From the NCBI GenBank assembly GCA_018268455.1, contig JAFDWM010000006.1, forward strand, positions 1-54,546: a stretch of DNA of 54,546 nt, given 5' to 3'. Source of the DNA: Actinomycetota bacterium (lineage in GTDB: Bacteria > Actinomycetota > Actinomycetes > Actinomycetales > Microbacteriaceae). The notes beneath the pieces are model-generated. The model did not search any database and was not told the origin of the DNA. It worked only from the letters and a program-made list of their open reading frames with translations. Of the stretch, positions 1,228 through 52,902 are shown in pieces (position 1 is the first letter of the stretch; every line of letters starts with the position of its first letter). A program made the translations under genes and the position numbers.

Positions 1228-3810
1228 GTGGAGCGAGAAGCCCGGGGCGCCGTCGACGCGGCGTCTTCGTCCGCTCCCGTGCGCGGGCTACGCACGCTGC
1301 TGATCGACAACTACGACTCGTTCACGTACAACCTGGTGCATCAGATCGCGGCCGCCGCGGGGGAGGCGCCGACGGTCGTGCCCAACGACTGGGCGGCGTG
1401 GGATCCGGCGGTGCTCGACGGATTCGACGCGGTGGTCCTCTCGCCCGGCCCCGGCGATCCGAGTGTTCCTGCGGACTTCGGCATCTGCGCCGAGGCGATC
1501 CGCGAGTGCGCCGCTCGGCGCATCCCGCTGTTCGGCGTCTGCCTCGGCCATCAGGGCCTGGGCCTCGCCTACGGCGCCCGGGTGCTGCGCGCGCCCGAGC
1601 CGCGGCACGGACGGCCCTCGCCCGTCTTCCACGACGGGACCGGGCCGTTCCGAGGCCTGCCGTCGCCGGTGCAGGTGATCCGCTATCACTCGCTCATGAT
1701 CGAGGATGCGCCCGACGAGCTCGTCGTGACGGCGCGGTCCGACGACGGCGTGATCATGGGGATCCGGCATCGCGACCTGCCGCTGTGGGGCGTGCAGTTC
1801 CATCCGGAGTCGATCGGCACCCGCGACGGCGCCGCCATGATGGACTCCTTCTTCGCGATGGTGCGTGCTTTTCGGCAGGGGGCCGTGCCTCTGCCCGGAT
1901 CCGACCCTGGCGTGCCCGGATCCGACCCGGGTGTGCCCGGATCCGACCCGTTCCCGCCCCAATCCGCCCCGTTCCCGCCCCAACTTCGGAGCACGGGCGC
2001 GACACGCCGGGTGGAGCTGGGATTCGGCGGCGTGTCGACTGCCAGCTCCGAAGTTGGGTTGGGGACAGCGGCCGAGGGTGGGCCCGCGCGTGGATCCGAC
2101 CGGGGTGTGCACGGATCCGACCCTGGCGTGCCCGGATCCGCCCCGTTCCCGTCCCAACTTCGGAGCACGGGCGCGACACGCCGGGTGGATCACGGATCCG
2201 GCGGCGTGTCGGCGGCCAGCTCCGAAGTTGGGTTGGGGACAGAGGCCGAGACGGGGCCTGGACCGCGTGCCGTCGTGCGGAGGGTCGTGCCCCTCCAAGC
2301 GGATCCGGCCGACCTGTTCGCCGGGCTGTACGGCGACGCCGCACAGGCGGTGTGGCTGGACGGGAACCGGCCCGGTGACCTGCGCGCCCGGTACTCGATC
2401 ATGGGTGGTGGCGACGATCTGGTGACCGCGACCGCCGACGTGCAGGTGGGCACCGTGACCGTGCGCGCCGGTGCCGACGAGCACGTCGAGCGCACCGGCT
2501 TCTTCGACTGGCTCGAGCGGGCGCTCGCCGCGACCCGCACAGCGGACTCCGGGCTGCCGTTCGCGCTCGGCTGGGTCGGCGCGCTGGGCTATGAGCTTCG
2601 CGCGGAGTGCGGATCCGTGCACGACCGGGCCGCCCCGACGCCCGACGCCCTGCTCGTGCGCCTCGATCGCGCCCTCGTGATCGACAACGTGCAGGGGCGG
2701 ATCCACCTGCTCGCGCTCGACGACGACGCCTGGGTCGACGAGATGGCCGAGAGGATCCGCACGCTCTCCCCTCCGGCCGACGCGGCAGGCACGGCTGGCG
2801 CGCTAGCCGCGGCCGGCTCGGCCCGCACCGGGCTGCTCGCCGGCGCACTCACCGCACGGCACTCGCGTGAGCACTACCTGGCACTGATCGCCGACGCGCA
2901 GGAGCAGATCGCGGCGGGGGAGACGTACGAGGCGTGCCTGACGAATCTGCTGCACGCGCCGCTCGCCGCCGCGGATCCGCTCGCTGCCGCGGATCCGCTC
3001 GCTGCCGCGGATCCGCTCGCGGACGCGGATCCGCTCACGTATGCGCCGCTCGCCGCCGCGGATCCGCTCGCTGCCGCGGATCCGCTCGCCACCGGGCTCG
3101 CCGCCGGGGATCCGCTCGCCGCCTACCTCGCCCTGCGTGCGCAGAATCCTGCGCCGTTCGGGGCGTTCCTGCGCATCGCGGGCGTGACGGTGCTGAGCAC
3201 CTCGCCCGAGCGCTTCCTGCGGATCACGTCCGACGGCGCGGTCGAGTCCAGCCCGATCAAGGGCACCAGGCCCCGGGGAGCGACCGCCGAGGAGGACGAG
3301 CGGATCCGTGCGGAGCTCGCCGCCAGTGAGAAGGACCGGTCCGAGAACCTCATGATCGTCGACCTCGTGCGTCACGATCTCGGTCGCACCGCGCAGCTCG
3401 GCTCCGTGCACGTGGACGGACTGTTCCGCGTGGAGAGCTATGCCACGGTGCACCAGTTGGTGAGCACCGTGCGCTCGACGCTCGCCGCCAGCCCCGTCGC
3501 CTGCGTGCGCGCCGCGTTTCCGCCGGGCTCGATGACCGGGGCGCCGAAGCTGCGCACGATGTCGATCCTGGACCGGCTCGAGGGCGGCCCGCGTGGGCTG
3601 TACAGCGGTGCGCTGGGGGTCTTCTCGTTCGACGGCGCCGTCGACCTCAGCGTCATCATCCGCACCCTGGTGCTGCATGACGGCGGCGCCGACTACGGTG
3701 TGGGGGGCGCGATCGTCGCGCTCTCCGATCCCGACGACGAGTACACCGAGACCGTCGTCAAGGCTCGGCCGCTGCTGCGGCTGACCGGAGCCGCCTTCCC
3801 CCAGGGCTGA
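1228..3810 (+). CDS. pabAB: Fused aminodeoxychorismate synthase PabA-PabB with in-frame repeats
   Basis: An 860-aa bifunctional enzyme making 4-amino-4-deoxychorismate from chorismate and glutamine for folate synthesis. The N-terminal glutamine amidotransferase (about residues 21-212) has the nucleophile Cys105 in GVCLGHQ and the His192/Glu194 pair in FHPES. The C-terminal chorismate-binding domain (about 350-858) carries PIKGT with Lys678, the lysine typical of PabB rather than TrpE, and the metal-binding stretch SEKDRSENLMIVDLVRHDLGR-like region near 705-725. Oddities: the linker (about 220-345) consists of PGSDPGV repeats and two in-frame copies of an 80-bp nested palindrome, and residues about 577-632 are a LAAADP minisatellite inside the PabB domain. 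The protein is therefore well over 100 residues longer than usual. The GTG start follows ygfZ directly. Confidence 0.95.
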   Translation: MEREARGAVDAASSSAPVRGLRTLLIDNYDSFTYNLVHQIAAAAGEAPTVVPNDWAAWDPAVLDGFDAVVLSPGPGDPSVPADFGICAEAIRECAARRIPLFGVCLGHQGLGLAYGARVLRAPEPRHGRPSPVFHDGTGPFRGLPSPVQVIRYHSLMIEDAPDELVVTARSDDGVIMGIRHRDLPLWGVQFHPESIGTRDGAAMMDSFFAMVRAFRQGAVPLPGSDPGVPGSDPGVPGSDPFPPQSAPFPPQLRSTGATRRVELGFGGVSTASSEVGLGTAAEGGPARGSDRGVHGSDPGVPGSAPFPSQLRSTGATRRVDHGSGGVSAASSEVGLGTEAETGPGPRAVVRRVVPLQADPADLFAGLYGDAAQAVWLDGNRPGDLRARYSIMGGGDDLVTATADVQVGTVTVRAGADEHVERTGFFDWLERALAATRTADSGLPFALGWVGALGYELRAECGSVHDRAAPTPDALLVRLDRALVIDNVQGRIHLLALDDDAWVDEMAERIRTLSPPADAAGTAGALAAAGSARTGLLAGALTARHSREHYLALIADAQEQIAAGETYEACLTNLLHAPLAAADPLAAADPLAAADPLADADPLTYAPLAAADPLAAADPLATGLAAGDPLAAYLALRAQNPAPFGAFLRIAGVTVLSTSPERFLRITSDGAVESSPIKGTRPRGATAEEDERIRAELAASEKDRSENLMIVDLVRHDLGRTAQLGSVHVDGLFRVESYATVHQLVSTVRSTLAASPVACVRAAFPPGSMTGAPKLRTMSILDRLEGGPRGLYSGALGVFSFDGAVDLSVIIRTLVLHDGGADYGVGGAIVALSDPDDEYTETVVKARPLLRLTGAAFPQG
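1897..2262. repeat. Tandemly duplicated GGATCC array plus nested palindrome inside pabAB
   Basis: GGATCC occurs at 1897, 1918 and 1939 (21-bp period), followed by an 80-bp nested palindrome at 1979-2058. The block is then repeated: GGATCC at 2092, 2113 and 2134, palindrome at 2153-2232. Each palindrome has 14-bp outer arms (CCCAACTTCGGAGC / its complement) and inner arms containing CGACACGCCG / CGGCGTGTCG. The repeat offset is 195 bp for the arrays and 174 bp for the palindromes, both multiples of three, so the reading frame is preserved. The block encodes the inter-domain linker of PabAB. Confidence 0.9.
2961..3122. repeat. 18-bp in-frame minisatellite in the PabB domain
   Basis: Degenerate tandem copies of an 18-bp unit, GCGGATCCGCTCGCTGCC, each encoding A-D-P-L-A-A, run through this stretch; seven units keep the GGATCC core. 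The surrounding protein has CLTN...YLALRAQNPAPFGAF, the normal PabB sequence on either side. The array therefore looks like an expansion of the ancestral DPLAAYLALR segment. Units are multiples of three, so slippage would change length without breaking the frame. Confidence 0.9.
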
Positions 3811-15653: not shown

Positions 15654-16631
15654 ATGCGCGCAGTCATCCACTCCTCCTTCGGCGATCCGGCCGAGGTGCT
15701 CTCCGTGCAGGACGTGCCCGAGCCCGAGCCCGGGCCTGGGCAGGTGCGGCTGAGGGTGCTGCTCGCCACCGTGCACAACCACGACCTGCTCACGGTGGGC
15801 GGCCTGTACGGTTACAAGCCGGAACTTCCCGCCCGCAGCGGCACCGAGGCGGTCGGGATCGTCGACGCGGTCGGTGCGGGTGTGGACGAGGCGCTGATCG
15901 GGCGTCGCGTCACGGTCGGCGGCGCGTTCGGCGCGTGGGCCGAGTACGTGCTCGCCGCAGCCGCGGGCCTCATCGCCGTGCCCGACGACATCCCCGACGA
16001 GCAGGCCGCACAGCTCGGATCCATGCCGTTCAGCGCCATCAGCGTGCTCGACTCGCTCGCCCTGCAGCCCGGGGAATGGATGATCCAGAATGCGGCGAAC
16101 GGCGCGGTCGGCCGGATGGTCGCCCAGCTCGCGGCAGCGCGCGGCGTGCATGCGGTGAGCCTGGTGCGCCGCACGGCGGGAATCACCGAGCTCGCGGCAC
16201 AGGGCGTCGGCAACGTCGTCGCCACCGACACGGACGACTGGGCCGACCGGGTCGCGGCACTCACCGCCGGTGCTCCGATCCGCGCCGGCATCGACTCCGT
16301 CGGCGGCCAGGCCGCCGGGCAGATCGCGGCGATGGTGTCCGAGGGCGGGCAGGTGGTGATCTTCGGGGCGATGCATTCACCGACCCTGCAGATCTCGTCG
16401 GGCGACATCATCTTCAAGCAGCTCACCGTGCGCGGGTTCTGGGGCTCCAAGGTCGCCGCGGCCATGCCGGCCGAGGAGCGCGCCTCCCTGTTCAGGGAGC
16501 TGCTGCAGCGGCTGAGGGAGGGGGCGCTCACCCTGCCGGTCGCCGCGGTGCTGCCGTTCGAGCGCGCGGGCGAGGCGAACCAGGCGACCCTCAGCGCCGG
16601 ACGTGAGGGCAAGATCCTGCTGCGGCCGTGA
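15654..16631 (+). CDS. MDR-family reductase (quinone / 2-enoyl thioester reductase-like)
   Basis: A 325-aa medium-chain dehydrogenase/reductase. The N-terminal GroES-like domain lacks the cysteine/histidine zinc ligands of alcohol dehydrogenases. The coenzyme domain has WMIQNAANGAVGRMVAQLA, close to the QNxANSxVG motif of Etr1/MECR 2-enoyl thioester reductases and quinone reductases. NADPH use is therefore likely. ATG 15654 is supported by GAGAGG and by alignment of MRAVIHSSFGDPAEVL to family starts; a longer upstream frame overlapping ispDF is rejected. No substrate can be named. Confidence 0.88.
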   Translation: MRAVIHSSFGDPAEVLSVQDVPEPEPGPGQVRLRVLLATVHNHDLLTVGGLYGYKPELPARSGTEAVGIVDAVGAGVDEALIGRRVTVGGAFGAWAEYVLAAAAGLIAVPDDIPDEQAAQLGSMPFSAISVLDSLALQPGEWMIQNAANGAVGRMVAQLAAARGVHAVSLVRRTAGITELAAQGVGNVVATDTDDWADRVAALTAGAPIRAGIDSVGGQAAGQIAAMVSEGGQVVIFGAMHSPTLQISSGDIIFKQLTVRGFWGSKVAAAMPAEERASLFRELLQRLREGALTLPVAAVLPFERAGEANQATLSAGREGKILLRP

Positions 16632-17108
16632 TCGAGCTGCTGCACTCCGTGTGAGTGGATCCGCGGATCTGGCTGCGCCGCGGATCCCGCCCACCGGATC
16701 CGCCCGCCGGGGCCCAACTTCGGAGCCAGGGTGCGACACGCCGTGCTTCGGGGTGTGTCTGGCGGCGTGTCGCGGGTCAGCTCCGAAGTTGGGTTCTCCG
16801 AGGGGCAGGAACGGGCAGGGATCCGCCCTGCCGGGATCCCTCCTGTCGGATCCGCCATGCCGGGATCCGCATGCCGGGACCCGTCCTGCCGGATCCGCCG
16901 GCTGGATCCCAACTTCGGAGCCAGGGCCCGACACGCCGTGCTTGGGGGTGTGTCTGGCGGCGTGTCGCGGGTCAGCTCCGAAGTTGGGTCGCGGGCCGCA
17001 CCCGCGCGATGGACCGACCGCCGCGCCCGTTCCGGACCGCACGGCAGGCCGACTCGAACGGGAAACGGGCCCGGGATTCTCCGAGGGCCGCCCCGGTAGG
17101 CTTGAGCG
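16632..17108. repeat. Intergenic GGATCC arrays with two nested palindromes
   Basis: This 477-base gap before cysS holds no gene I can support. GGATCC occurs at 16657, 16682 and 16696, followed by an 81-bp nested palindrome (16713-16793). A second array with GGATCC at 16819, 16834, 16848, 16863, 16891 and 16904 (about 14-15 bp period) leads to a second 81-bp copy (16908-16988). Outer arms are the same CCCAACTTCGGAGC as in pabAB; inner arms are GCGACACGCCG / CGGCGTGTCGC. After 16988 the sequence runs to a TAGGCT at 17097-17102, the likely cysS -10. Confidence 0.9.
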
Positions 17109-18608
17109 GTGACGATCCGCCTCCATGACACGCGCGCGCAGCAGCTGCGCGACTTCGTCCCGCTCGATGAGTCGAACGTGACGATGTACGTGTGCGGACC
17201 CACCGTGCAGTCCGGCCCGCATATCGGGCATGTGCGGGCGGCGCTGAGCTTCGATCTGCTGCGCCGCTGGCTCGAACGCCGGTACGGCAGGGTCACGGTC
17301 GTGCGCAATGTCACCGACATCGACGACAAGATCCTCGCGAACGCGACCCAGACGGATCCGTGGTGGGCGCTCGCCTATCGCATGGAGCAGGAGTTCGCCG
17401 CGGCGTATGCCGCCGTCGGCATCCTCCCGCCGACGTACGAGCCGCGCGCGACCGCGTCGGTCCCGCAGATGCAGGAGCTCATCCAACGGCTCATCGAGCG
17501 CGGGCACGCGTACCCCGCGGCCGACGGATCCGGCGACGTGTACTTCGATGTGCGCTCCTGGGCCGCCTACGGTGAGCTCACCCGGCAGTCCGTCGACGCG
17601 ATGGAGGCCGCGGAGGATGCCGATCCGCGCGGCAAGCGCAACCCGCAGGACTTCGCACTGTGGAAGGGCGCGAAGGTCGGGGAGCCGGCCGATGCGACCT
17701 GGGCGTCACCCTGGGGGGCCGGCCGTCCGGGCTGGCACATCGAGTGCTCGGCGATGGCGCGCCGCTACCTCGGGCCGGAGTTCGACATCCACGGCGGCGG
17801 CCTCGACCTGCGCTTCCCGCACCACGAGAACGAGCTCGCGCAGTCCGCGGCCGCCGGCGACGGCTTCGCCAGGTACTGGGTGCACAACGGCCTGGTCACC
17901 GTGAACGGCCAGAAGATGTCGAAGTCGCTCGGCAACTTCACCCTCGCCGCCGACGTCATCCGCGGCCTCTCGGCGGACGCACGCGGCGCCCATGACCCGC
18001 TCGTCGTGCGGTACGCACTCGCCGCCGCGCATTACCGTTCGAGCCTCGACCTCTCCGACTCATCCTGGGCCGAGGCGGAGTCGGCGCTCGGCCGGATCCG
18101 CACGTTCCTGGAGCGGGCGGAGCACGCCGTCGCGCGCAATGACGCCCGGCGCCGCGCGCTGCAGGAGGCGGGGGCGACGACTCCGGGAGAGGCCCCCGGC
18201 GATACCGTCGAGTACATCCCGCTGATCCCCGACGCCTTCGCGCGCGCCATGGACGACGATCTCGGCGTGCCGCAGGCGCTCGCCGTGCTGCACGAGACGG
18301 TGCGCCGCGGCAACCAGGCCGTCGACGACGGCGACGACCCGGCCGCCGAGCGGGCGCTGATCGAGGTGCGTGCGATGACCGCCGTACTCGGGCTGGATCC
18401 GCTCGCTCCCGAGTGGACGCCGGCCGGATCCGATACCAAGACCACCGCCGCGCTGGACGCTCTCGTCCAGGCGATGATCGGCCAGCGCGCGCAGGCGCGC
18501 GCCGACAAGGACTGGCCTGCTGCCGACCGCATCCGCGATGCGATCGCCGCCGCAGGCATCACCCTGGAGGACACTCCAGACGGAACTCATTGGAGCATCG
18601 ATGTCTAA
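17109..18608 (+). CDS. cysS: Cysteinyl-tRNA synthetase
   Basis: A 499-aa class I synthetase charging tRNA-Cys. HIGH is at residues 38-41 (PHIGHVR) and KMSKS at 269-273. Zinc-site elements are visible: Cys29 in [15 protein letters not shown], and the HHENE segment. Full length and the anticodon-binding C-terminus distinguish it from the shorter mycothiol ligase MshC. GTG 17109 has TAGGCT ending 6 nt before it, which suggests leaderless initiation. The last 8 nt overlap rlmB. Order ispDF-cysS-rlmB is conserved in actinobacteria. Confidence 0.97.
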
Positions 18609-22099: not shown

Positions 22100-23203
<1,104 letters not shown>

Positions 23204-23362
23204 TGTCTTCTCCTTCACCGGCAGGTACGTGCCGGACGATCCGTAGTGAAAAAGCGACGAGGGTGAACCCGCCGTGGCCCGCCATCGGGCCGCGATCAGT
23301 ATGACATGCGCCGCGGCGAAGAGTCCATTCAGCGCGATGAAGCGCTTTCCCAGGGGTGTCCG

Positions 23363-52775: not shown

Positions 52776-52902
52776 GTGATCCTCCGAGAGCCAGTCTTTT
52801 CGCTTTCCGGGTACTGGCCCGCCTCGTCCGGGTGCGCATCGCGCAATGGTCACAGTAGCCCGGCGGCCTGGGCAGGACCCGTGCAGTCGTGGAACGGTGC
52901 GC

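Follow-up and report, generated by a model that had tools for sequence, protein, structure and literature searches.

The question raised by this locus is how a long palindrome comes to lie twice, and in frame, within the linker of a fused PabAB protein, and to what kind of repeat it belongs. The locus is part of a window of 54,546 nucleotides (the whole stretch that was analysed; contig JAFDWM010000006.1, positions 1 to 54,546 of the forward strand) with a G+C content of 71%, taken from the 3.6-Mb draft genome of an Actinomycetota bacterium of the family Microbacteriaceae (GCA_018268455.1, hereafter the source genome). The palindromes belong to a dispersed family with near-perfect arms, diverged spacers and outer arms whose spelling is largely typical of the species. 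They may constitute a population of half-site pairs resembling REPINs (repetitive extragenic palindromic, or REP, doublets forming hairpins) and recognised by a dialect-specific protein, for which a nuclease combining AbiEi and DUF559 domains is the best candidate; we judge this reading to have about an even chance of being correct.

Palindromic elements in the pabAB linker and upstream of cysS

Four elements were located in the window, two of them within the pabAB gene:

1228..3810, + strand: fused PabAB open reading frame (ORF), 860 codons, open throughout, assigned by the Pfam domains GATase, Anth_synt_I_N and Chorismate_bind and by orthologue alignment
1979..2058, no strand assigned: palindromic element 1, with outer arms 1979-1992 and 2045-2058, N7 on each side, inner arms 2000-2009 and 2028-2037, and loop 2010-2027
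2153..2232, no strand assigned: palindromic element 2, with outer arms 2153-2166 and 2219-2232 and inner arms 2174-2183 and 2202-2211
16713..16793, no strand assigned: palindromic element 3, between an ORF ending at 16631 and cysS (ORF 17109-18608)
16908..16988, no strand assigned: palindromic element 4, in tandem with element 3 at a period of 195 bp
1911..2084 and 2085..2258, + strand: tandem duplication of a 174-nt unit (58 codons), copies 87% identical, one element per copy

The linker that hosts elements 1 and 2 lies between GATase (residues 24-210) and Anth_synt_I_N (residues 358-494). A pattern combining the half-site with the inner pair gave eight matches in the window, corresponding to the four elements on both strands, versus none in 100 shuffles. 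The initial annotation had claimed that all offsets within the linker are multiples of three, which agrees with the periods of 21 and 174 nt and with the ORF remaining open, and that the same palindrome occurs near cysS, where it is now found as the pair of elements 3 and 4.

A strong PabAB match was obtained in 14 of 366 genus genomes, including the source genome. Thirteen orthologous loci were tried, of which five gave no ORF with the motif used; in all eight aligned proteins the linker is short and lacks both the block and the AADPLA array downstream of it. The block is thus absent from these eight orthologues, and its arm sequence recurs elsewhere in the source genome (vide infra); neither of the two findings that the initial annotation named as refuting its reading was made. 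Upstream of cysS, the gap to the preceding gene, which we take to be ispF, is 426-457 bp in the source genome versus 15-129 bp in the 11 relatives, of 13, that had matches listed on both sides. Among 11 segments inspected for this gap, five fell inside cysS and six showed the gap, and none of these six contained the present element.

Anatomy and conservation of the arms

A search of the source genome with the first copy as query gave 85 match rows, and in the loci retrieved 38 two-armed elements were counted in about 23 places, often in tandem arrays with periods of 149-253 bp and up to five elements. The palindrome thus belongs to a dispersed repeat family, in line with the initial annotation. 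The source-genome consensus is CCCAACTTCGGAGC-N7-CGACACGCCG-N18/19-CGGCGTGTCG-N7-GCTCCGAAGTTGGG. The outer arms measure about 14 bp and the inner arms 10 bp; with a loop of 18-19 nt, the whole element spans 80-81 bp. The half-site, AACTTCGGAG-N8-CGACACGCCG, has 79 matches in the source genome versus none for the reversed control; 66 are perfect, ten have one mismatch, none has two and three have three. The 38 pairs account for 76 of these matches, 66 of which are perfect.

The arms are far better conserved than the sequence between them. Over 23 independent source loci, identity is 0.99 and 0.98 in the two outer arms and 0.98 and 0.96 in the inner arms, whereas the unpaired parts (N7, 0.36 and 0.38; loop, 0.34; flanks, 0.32 and 0.35) exceed the 0.29-0.34 expected from composition by 0 to 6 points. 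Between neighbours in arrays (14 pairs; a further pair, with its first copy at the start of a contig, was left unscored), 662 of 672 arm positions are identical as compared to 379 of 459 spacer positions (p 4e-23). Since both array neighbours and independent loci differ far more in their spacers than in their arms, the arms of every copy are under strong constraint.

One lone half-site in the source genome was considered as the operator of a regulator. This was rejected, as the site (L049:3831-3858, with about 60 bp downstream) is what is left of an element that has decayed within a penicillin acylase gene.

Distribution and species dialects

A covariance model built from 36 source copies (E up to 1e-3, 28 candidates scored per genome) detected the family in 85 of 149 genus genomes. 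The general layout in the Microbacteriaceae is (outer arm)CGGAG-N7/8-CGACACGCCG-N18/19-CGGCGTGTCG-N7/8-CTCCG(outer arm). The N8 core form of this layout occurs in at least 47 stretches of named records, from Microbacterium, Agromyces, Cryobacterium, Naasia, Glaciihabitans, Mycetocola, metagenome genomes and a Cellulomonas, and in at least 13 of 398 family genomes; these are lower bounds, as the N8 pattern misses the N9 form of the source genome, where it has no match. A match in Marinactinospora looks like chance. The N9 form gave no match in viral contigs, and the exact source arms were found in no contig of another species, in a search that may omit the source genome or very near records. 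The element is identical in L208 (Cryobacterium cheniae) and L239, a locus from the family to which the window belongs. The genus is probably Microbacterium.

The inner arm is nearly constant across these genomes and the outer arm is largely species-typical, so that genomes can be assigned dialects: CACAACTTCGG in genome G029, CGAAAVGTCGG in G021, CACAACGGCGG in G097, CGCAACATCGG in both M. flavescens and M. gallinarum, and GCCGTCCTGCGG in a metagenome genome. Outer-arm identity is 0.86 within and 0.48 between genomes (143 elements). In a set of 51 genomes, each represented by a single element, the outer 10-nt arms pair at 8.18 of 10 positions, and exchanging arms between genomes lowers this to 4.59 (sd 0.23). 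Some genomes have the same or nearly the same dialect, and a few are internally variable (A. terreus, 0.57; M. oleivorans, 0.60). In G029, G021 and G097, elements were selected by their score to the source-copy model, which somewhat inflates the arm conservation there; the source-genome count is not affected.

Two side observations may be added. In Cellulomonas alba, outside the Microbacteriaceae, two elements occur about 1.9 kb apart (L228:4518-6466). A second palindrome family has a fixed 47-bp core, GAGCGATGT-N29-ACATCGCTC (L161-L175, e.g. L169:1501-1547), with 9, 6, 3 and 2 exact copies in G115, G111, G064 and G170 and none in the source genome. In the loci retrieved it lies mostly 13-37 bp after stop codons, and in G115 it fills the gap before cysS in which the source genome has its element pair.

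An AbiEi-DUF559 nuclease gene flanked by elements

Neighbouring ORFs (569) were clustered, and clusters common to at least three loci were judged by eye to be housekeeping; one cluster, of five loci, is a nuclease that consists of an AbiEi_4 winged helix followed by a DUF559/MTES_1575 nuclease domain (Pfam; the AbiEi part is unscored in L184 and L271). A profile search of 320 overlapping stretches (1.43 Mb, including the window) gave 12 matches at 11 places in 11 genomes, all beside elements. The gene lies between two elements in nine of the 11 genomes (M. gallinarum, M. flavescens, M. oleivorans, M. testaceum NS283, Naasia, G097, G021, G029 and G129); in G125 there is an element on one side, and G147, where the locus ends within the gene, has an element on the side that is visible. 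Four gene contexts can be distinguished: a neighbourhood with pstB and/or aminodeoxychorismate (ADC) lyase, found in eight genomes, and those of M. oleivorans, M. testaceum and Naasia. The flanking elements fit the genome dialect in M. gallinarum, M. testaceum, Naasia, G097, G021, G029 and G125. In a rule-based count over 863,895 bases, eight of 11 nuclease genes are flanked on both sides versus four of 370 other ORFs (p 8e-12); L207 was scored as one-sided because its ORF start overlaps the element, and is two-sided by eye, while L271 has an element on one side and L057 is truncated at the edge of its locus.

Five of the nuclease proteins have in common an invariant E177, D204, E214 and D216 (numbering of the first row), in an E, D, ExD pattern; DUF559 is a Vsr-like domain. 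PADLOC recognised the AbiEi parts only, plus one weak DpdF match, NCBIfam gave nothing above cut-off and no curated family for the nuclease, and no solved structures were found for it. Three plasmid records and two phage records matched the nuclease, all of them distantly. Among the best matches in the open-access PubMed Central literature there is no account of the present element or of DUF559 genes with palindromes. On this correlative link the nuclease is a candidate for the enzyme recognising or spreading the elements.

In G143 a solo element (L054:1507-1587) lies between pstB and ADC lyase, where other species have the nuclease gene with an element on either side, and there is no nuclease match; the gene may have been lost by recombination between two elements.

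A proposed mechanism and the evidence against it

In the mechanism proposed here, the elements would be non-autonomous inverted pairs of a two-block half-site, with a variable outer and a constant inner block about two helical turns apart, and a dialect-specific protein would recognise these half-sites in duplex DNA. The best candidate for the recogniser would be the AbiEi-type winged-helix and DUF559/MTES_1575 nuclease, the gene of which is flanked by elements much as the RAYT (REP-associated tyrosine transposase) gene is by REPINs. The nuclease would bind the arms, its specificity would set the dialect, and its cutting, followed by repair, would spread or maintain the arms; the source genome would have, or would once have had, such a gene. 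Within pabAB, an element whose frame happened to lack stop codons may have been tolerated as a linker and then duplicated together with neighbouring GGATCC repeats. It is tentatively suggested, with more doubt than the mechanism as a whole, that cutting and short-patch repair both spread copies and correct drifting arms, thereby keeping the exact species spelling. Under such a cut-and-correct process arms would stay pristine while spacers saturate, and the dialect would switch genome-wide when the specificity of the nuclease changes.

A number of observations weigh against this reading. The nuclease link was found late and post hoc, and since loci were retrieved for containing elements, nuclease genes without elements would hardly be visible. 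The p value of the rule-based count overstates independence, as eight of the 11 flanked genes occupy one orthologous position and there are about four contexts, and the flanking score is raised by hand-trimmed gene starts in L056, L192 and L271, where the open frame runs through the upstream element. The elements of M. oleivorans, M. flavescens, G129 and G147 come from the nuclease locus itself, and agreement with the genome dialect could be judged independently in the other seven genomes only. The profile search found no nuclease in the source-genome loci, the rest of that genome not being searched, nor in the loci of the 47-bp-core palindrome. Correlations between protein and arm identity in ten genomes are mixed (rho 0.05 for the first 60 aligned columns, 0.62 for the middle and 0.41 for the nuclease), and all are confounded by phylogeny and by the poor alignment of the N terminus. 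Contrary to duplex recognition, pairing between the opposed N7 bases is below that of permuted ones in the source genome and in G029 (129 and 53 of 5000 shuffles, respectively, are as low), a hint of a hairpin whose internal loop is open; this reduction is not seen in other species pooled, nor clearly in G021 and G097. Finally, spacers are near background identity, so a recent burst is not visible.

Gene context and a possible host function

Genes were called with our own simple ORF finder based on third-codon-position G+C (GC3), with no annotation used. Gaps of 60-900 bp that contain elements are convergent in 30 cases, codirectional in 27 and divergent in two, as compared to 29, 70 and 43 among gaps without elements (p 1.6e-6), and the nearest gene end is a 3' end for 116 of the 146 elements having a gene end within 700 bp. 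G029 and G021, with 18 and 16 loci respectively, have five orthologous intergenic element positions in common, at which the outer arms differ; by an assumed, rough figure, about 0.2 such positions might be expected. An in-frame element also occupies the linker of a thiamine pyrophosphate (TPP) enzyme in G029, G021 and G014, in highly similar proteins; in the two that were scanned, it separates the Pfam M domain from the C domain. Its outer arms differ between species, the encoded peptides are unlike, and an Agromyces relative lacks the element. Given the positions common to G029 and G021 and the TPP-enzyme linker, it appears that the outer arm changes at positions that are themselves old or preferred.

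Most copies are intergenic, and those inside genes are found at interdomain linkers or, for fruK, within the PfkB domain, where an in-frame element splits fruK/pfkB into two stretches of Pfam PfkB matches. The in-frame element of nadB lies at a variable linker; the nadB orthologues that could be aligned (G111, G352 and G004) are without the element (0/3), and ten of 13 loci gave no ORF with the motif used. The proposal in the initial annotation of a mobile or amplifying repeat able to settle in coding sequence is upheld to the extent that the family is dispersed and has in-frame copies in nadB and fruK as well.

The bias towards convergent genes and the orthologous positions with changed outer arms would also be expected if the elements were host functional sites, bound by a co-evolving host DNA-binding protein (as a transcription roadblock, for example, or a topological insulator between convergent genes), with the nuclease gene as a passenger. 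Arms conserved against diverged spacers, and conservation that proceeds half-site by half-site, would fit as well. Such sites are harder to reconcile with copies within pabAB, nadB, fruK and the TPP enzyme, with arrays of up to five, with a patchy occurrence (85/149 genus genomes) and few, weak matches in the closest fused-PabAB relatives (5/13), and with the flanking of the nuclease gene. A host function of this kind seems rather unlikely, and is nevertheless the strongest of the rival explanations.

Duplex half-sites or hairpins

A second alternative is that the elements act as hairpins of RNA or single-stranded DNA, such as gene-end terminators or stabilisers of mRNA, for which the stem is what counts. 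Predicted folds, computed for four elements of this family, are very stable (z -6.9 to -9.4), arms that differ between genomes remain complementary, elements tend to follow stop codons, and an internal loop may be open in the source genome and G029. However, within genomes there is no excess of compensatory change: matched double changes number three versus 2.9 by permutation in G021 and five versus 9.2 in G097, with none in the source genome or in G029. Because double changes that would keep pairing are no commoner than permuted ones, the arms seem to act as half-site sequence and not as a stem, and on these sequence comparisons recognition of half-sites in duplex DNA is favoured. One outer position varies in G021 (C in 16, A in 10 and G in 6 of 32 half-sites), most others being invariant. 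The near-invariance of the source arms goes beyond what pairing would demand, and the preference for G-U over A-C on the sense strand, at merely 24 to 18, is uninformative. No Rfam family reached its gathering score at any element, weak matches falling far below it, and by eye none of the 38 source copies has a T run within the 14 nt that follow its right arm, so the U-tract of an intrinsic terminator is lacking. A role as a hairpin is accordingly doubtful.

Tests of mobility

A conventional miniature inverted-repeat transposable element (MITE), moved by an ordinary DDE or HUH transposase, would account for a dispersed inverted repeat of uniform length that is present in the source genome where aligned relatives are without it. 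Direct repeats flanking the elements were sought as target duplications (2-9 nt, offsets 0-6), and none was found above permutation in the source genome, G029, G021 or G097. RAYT-type transposases (PF01797, Y1_Tnp) occur in one of 149 genus genomes and not in the source genome, and no transposase was recognised by eye among the neighbour-ORF clusters common to at least three loci. The outermost arm is also the variable part of the element, and spacers are unrelated between copies. A MITE of this kind is quite improbable. No empty-site pair with precise ends was found either; with no target duplication and spacers near background identity, recent hopping is not borne out.

The R boxes of attC sites read RYYYAAC and GTTRRRY. 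The source ends resemble them (of 36 aligned copies, 28 begin with a purine and 34 end with a pyrimidine), but recombination sites of an integron-type system are highly improbable and this reading was dropped, as the terminal boxes fail in other dialects (GCACAAC, CGAAACG, GCCGTCC) and the copies are dispersed singly or in short tandem arrays, with no evident cassette genes between source copies.

Comparison with known repeat systems

REPINs are described as inverted conserved ends around a diverse spacer that are duplicated by RAYT (PMC8049555, PMC3116915). The present elements resemble the REPIN-RAYT system in their inverted conserved ends and diverse spacer of fixed length, their tandem clusters, their uniformity within a genome and the presence of one element-flanked gene. 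They differ in that each half is a two-block site without GTAG that is not self-palindromic (by eye, from the consensus), and in that the flanked gene encodes an AbiEi winged helix-turn-helix with a DUF559 nuclease, Y1_Tnp being confined to the single genus genome noted above. As anatomy and population pattern fit REPINs while the RAYT and GTAG tests fail, the elements may be grouped with the REPIN-like repeats as a distinct form, the candidate enzyme of which belongs to a different class.

CGTC-tagged REPs are presented in PMC3733652, which also names the Rickettsia palindromic elements (RPEs), as palindromic, located downstream of genes, in some cases intragenic and without a known transposase. 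Their stems of 8-9 bp and loops of 4-5 nt, as given there (PMC3733652), contrast with the longer arms (outer, about 14 bp; inner, 10 bp) and larger loop (18-19 nt) of the present family. In the four former respects the two kinds of element are alike. RPEs are in-frame inserts tolerated within protein genes. The likeness drawn to them in the initial annotation, which is one of description and not of sequence, holds for in-frame tolerance only (pabAB, nadB, fruK and the TPP enzyme); the hosts are different, and most present copies are intergenic. MITEs and enterobacterial repetitive intergenic consensus (ERIC) sequences are, like the present elements, short, dispersed, imperfect palindromes, but here there is no target duplication and the interior is unlike between copies. 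DNA-uptake sequences in the Neisseriaceae and Pasteurellaceae have dialects, in which a species-specific spelling surrounds a conserved core, and are paired at gene ends. The present family has all three of these features, but its source half-sites are practically never solitary (76/79 in pairs).

Most work on the long-term persistence of short palindromic repeats has dealt with REPINs and a single class of enzyme. The present set, which spans a family, has clear dialects, combines near-perfect arms with diverged spacers and flanks a different enzyme, provides an independent test system, in which enzyme-site co-evolution becomes directly testable by swapping nuclease and dialect, and it offers a possible role for an uncharacterised protein family annotated in parts as AbiEi antitoxin and DUF559. 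It also shows that palindromic elements can sit in frame inside several enzymes. The cut-and-correct process, if true, would link an enzyme and a palindrome in a partnership distinct from the RAYT/HUH systems and would supply a function for part of the AbiEi-DUF559 family.

GGATCC repeats and other features of the window

The pabAB gene contains further repeats, each bearing GGATCC:

1892-1912, 1913-1933 and 1934-1954, + strand: three 21-nt GGATCC-bearing units, adjacent DNA judged to be outside the palindromic family
2108-2128 and 2129-2149, + strand: two more 21-nt GGATCC-bearing units, likewise judged to be outside the family
2961..3118, + strand: GGATCC tandem array within PabAB, coding for AADPLA-like repeats, missing from the eight aligned orthologues

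The initial annotation had described a 21-bp GGATCC array followed by a palindrome as one composite element. Both are indeed present in the linker, as five 21-nt units and palindromes of 80-81 bp, but the GGATCC repeats are judged separate from the palindromic family, and the view of the composite as a mobile unit is not supported. GGATCC occurs at 3.5 per kb in 201 kb of source loci, at 1.6-3.3 per kb in the loci of 12 of 13 fused-PabAB relatives (G004, 0.92) and at 0-1.24 per kb in other genomes with loci; for most genomes these densities rest on 3-8 kb, so single values are rough. In 130 source ORFs (window and loci L031-L050) there are 431 occurrences versus 93.9 (sd 6.7) after synonymous-codon shuffling, and within 150 bp of source elements the density is 13.2 per kb versus 4.4 per kb in other non-coding DNA. 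Since the hexamer is enriched in 12 of 13 fused-PabAB relatives, most of which have no elements or weak ones, GGATCC is a separate, clade-wide over-represented hexamer that decorates the linker. With its density of about 3.5 per kb and its retention in coding sequence in excess of what codon use explains, it is similar to the over-represented cyanobacterial palindromes of the HIP1 (highly iterated palindrome) type (PMC4390886); the difference is that GGATCC is a hexamer in an actinobacterial clade.

AGTACT is also over-represented in the 201 kb of source loci, with 19 occurrences versus 3.9 expected from a second-order Markov model. Elsewhere in the window, Rfam matches identify an msiK RNA at 23203-23262 and a Guanidine-III riboswitch at 52786-52849, both on the - strand.

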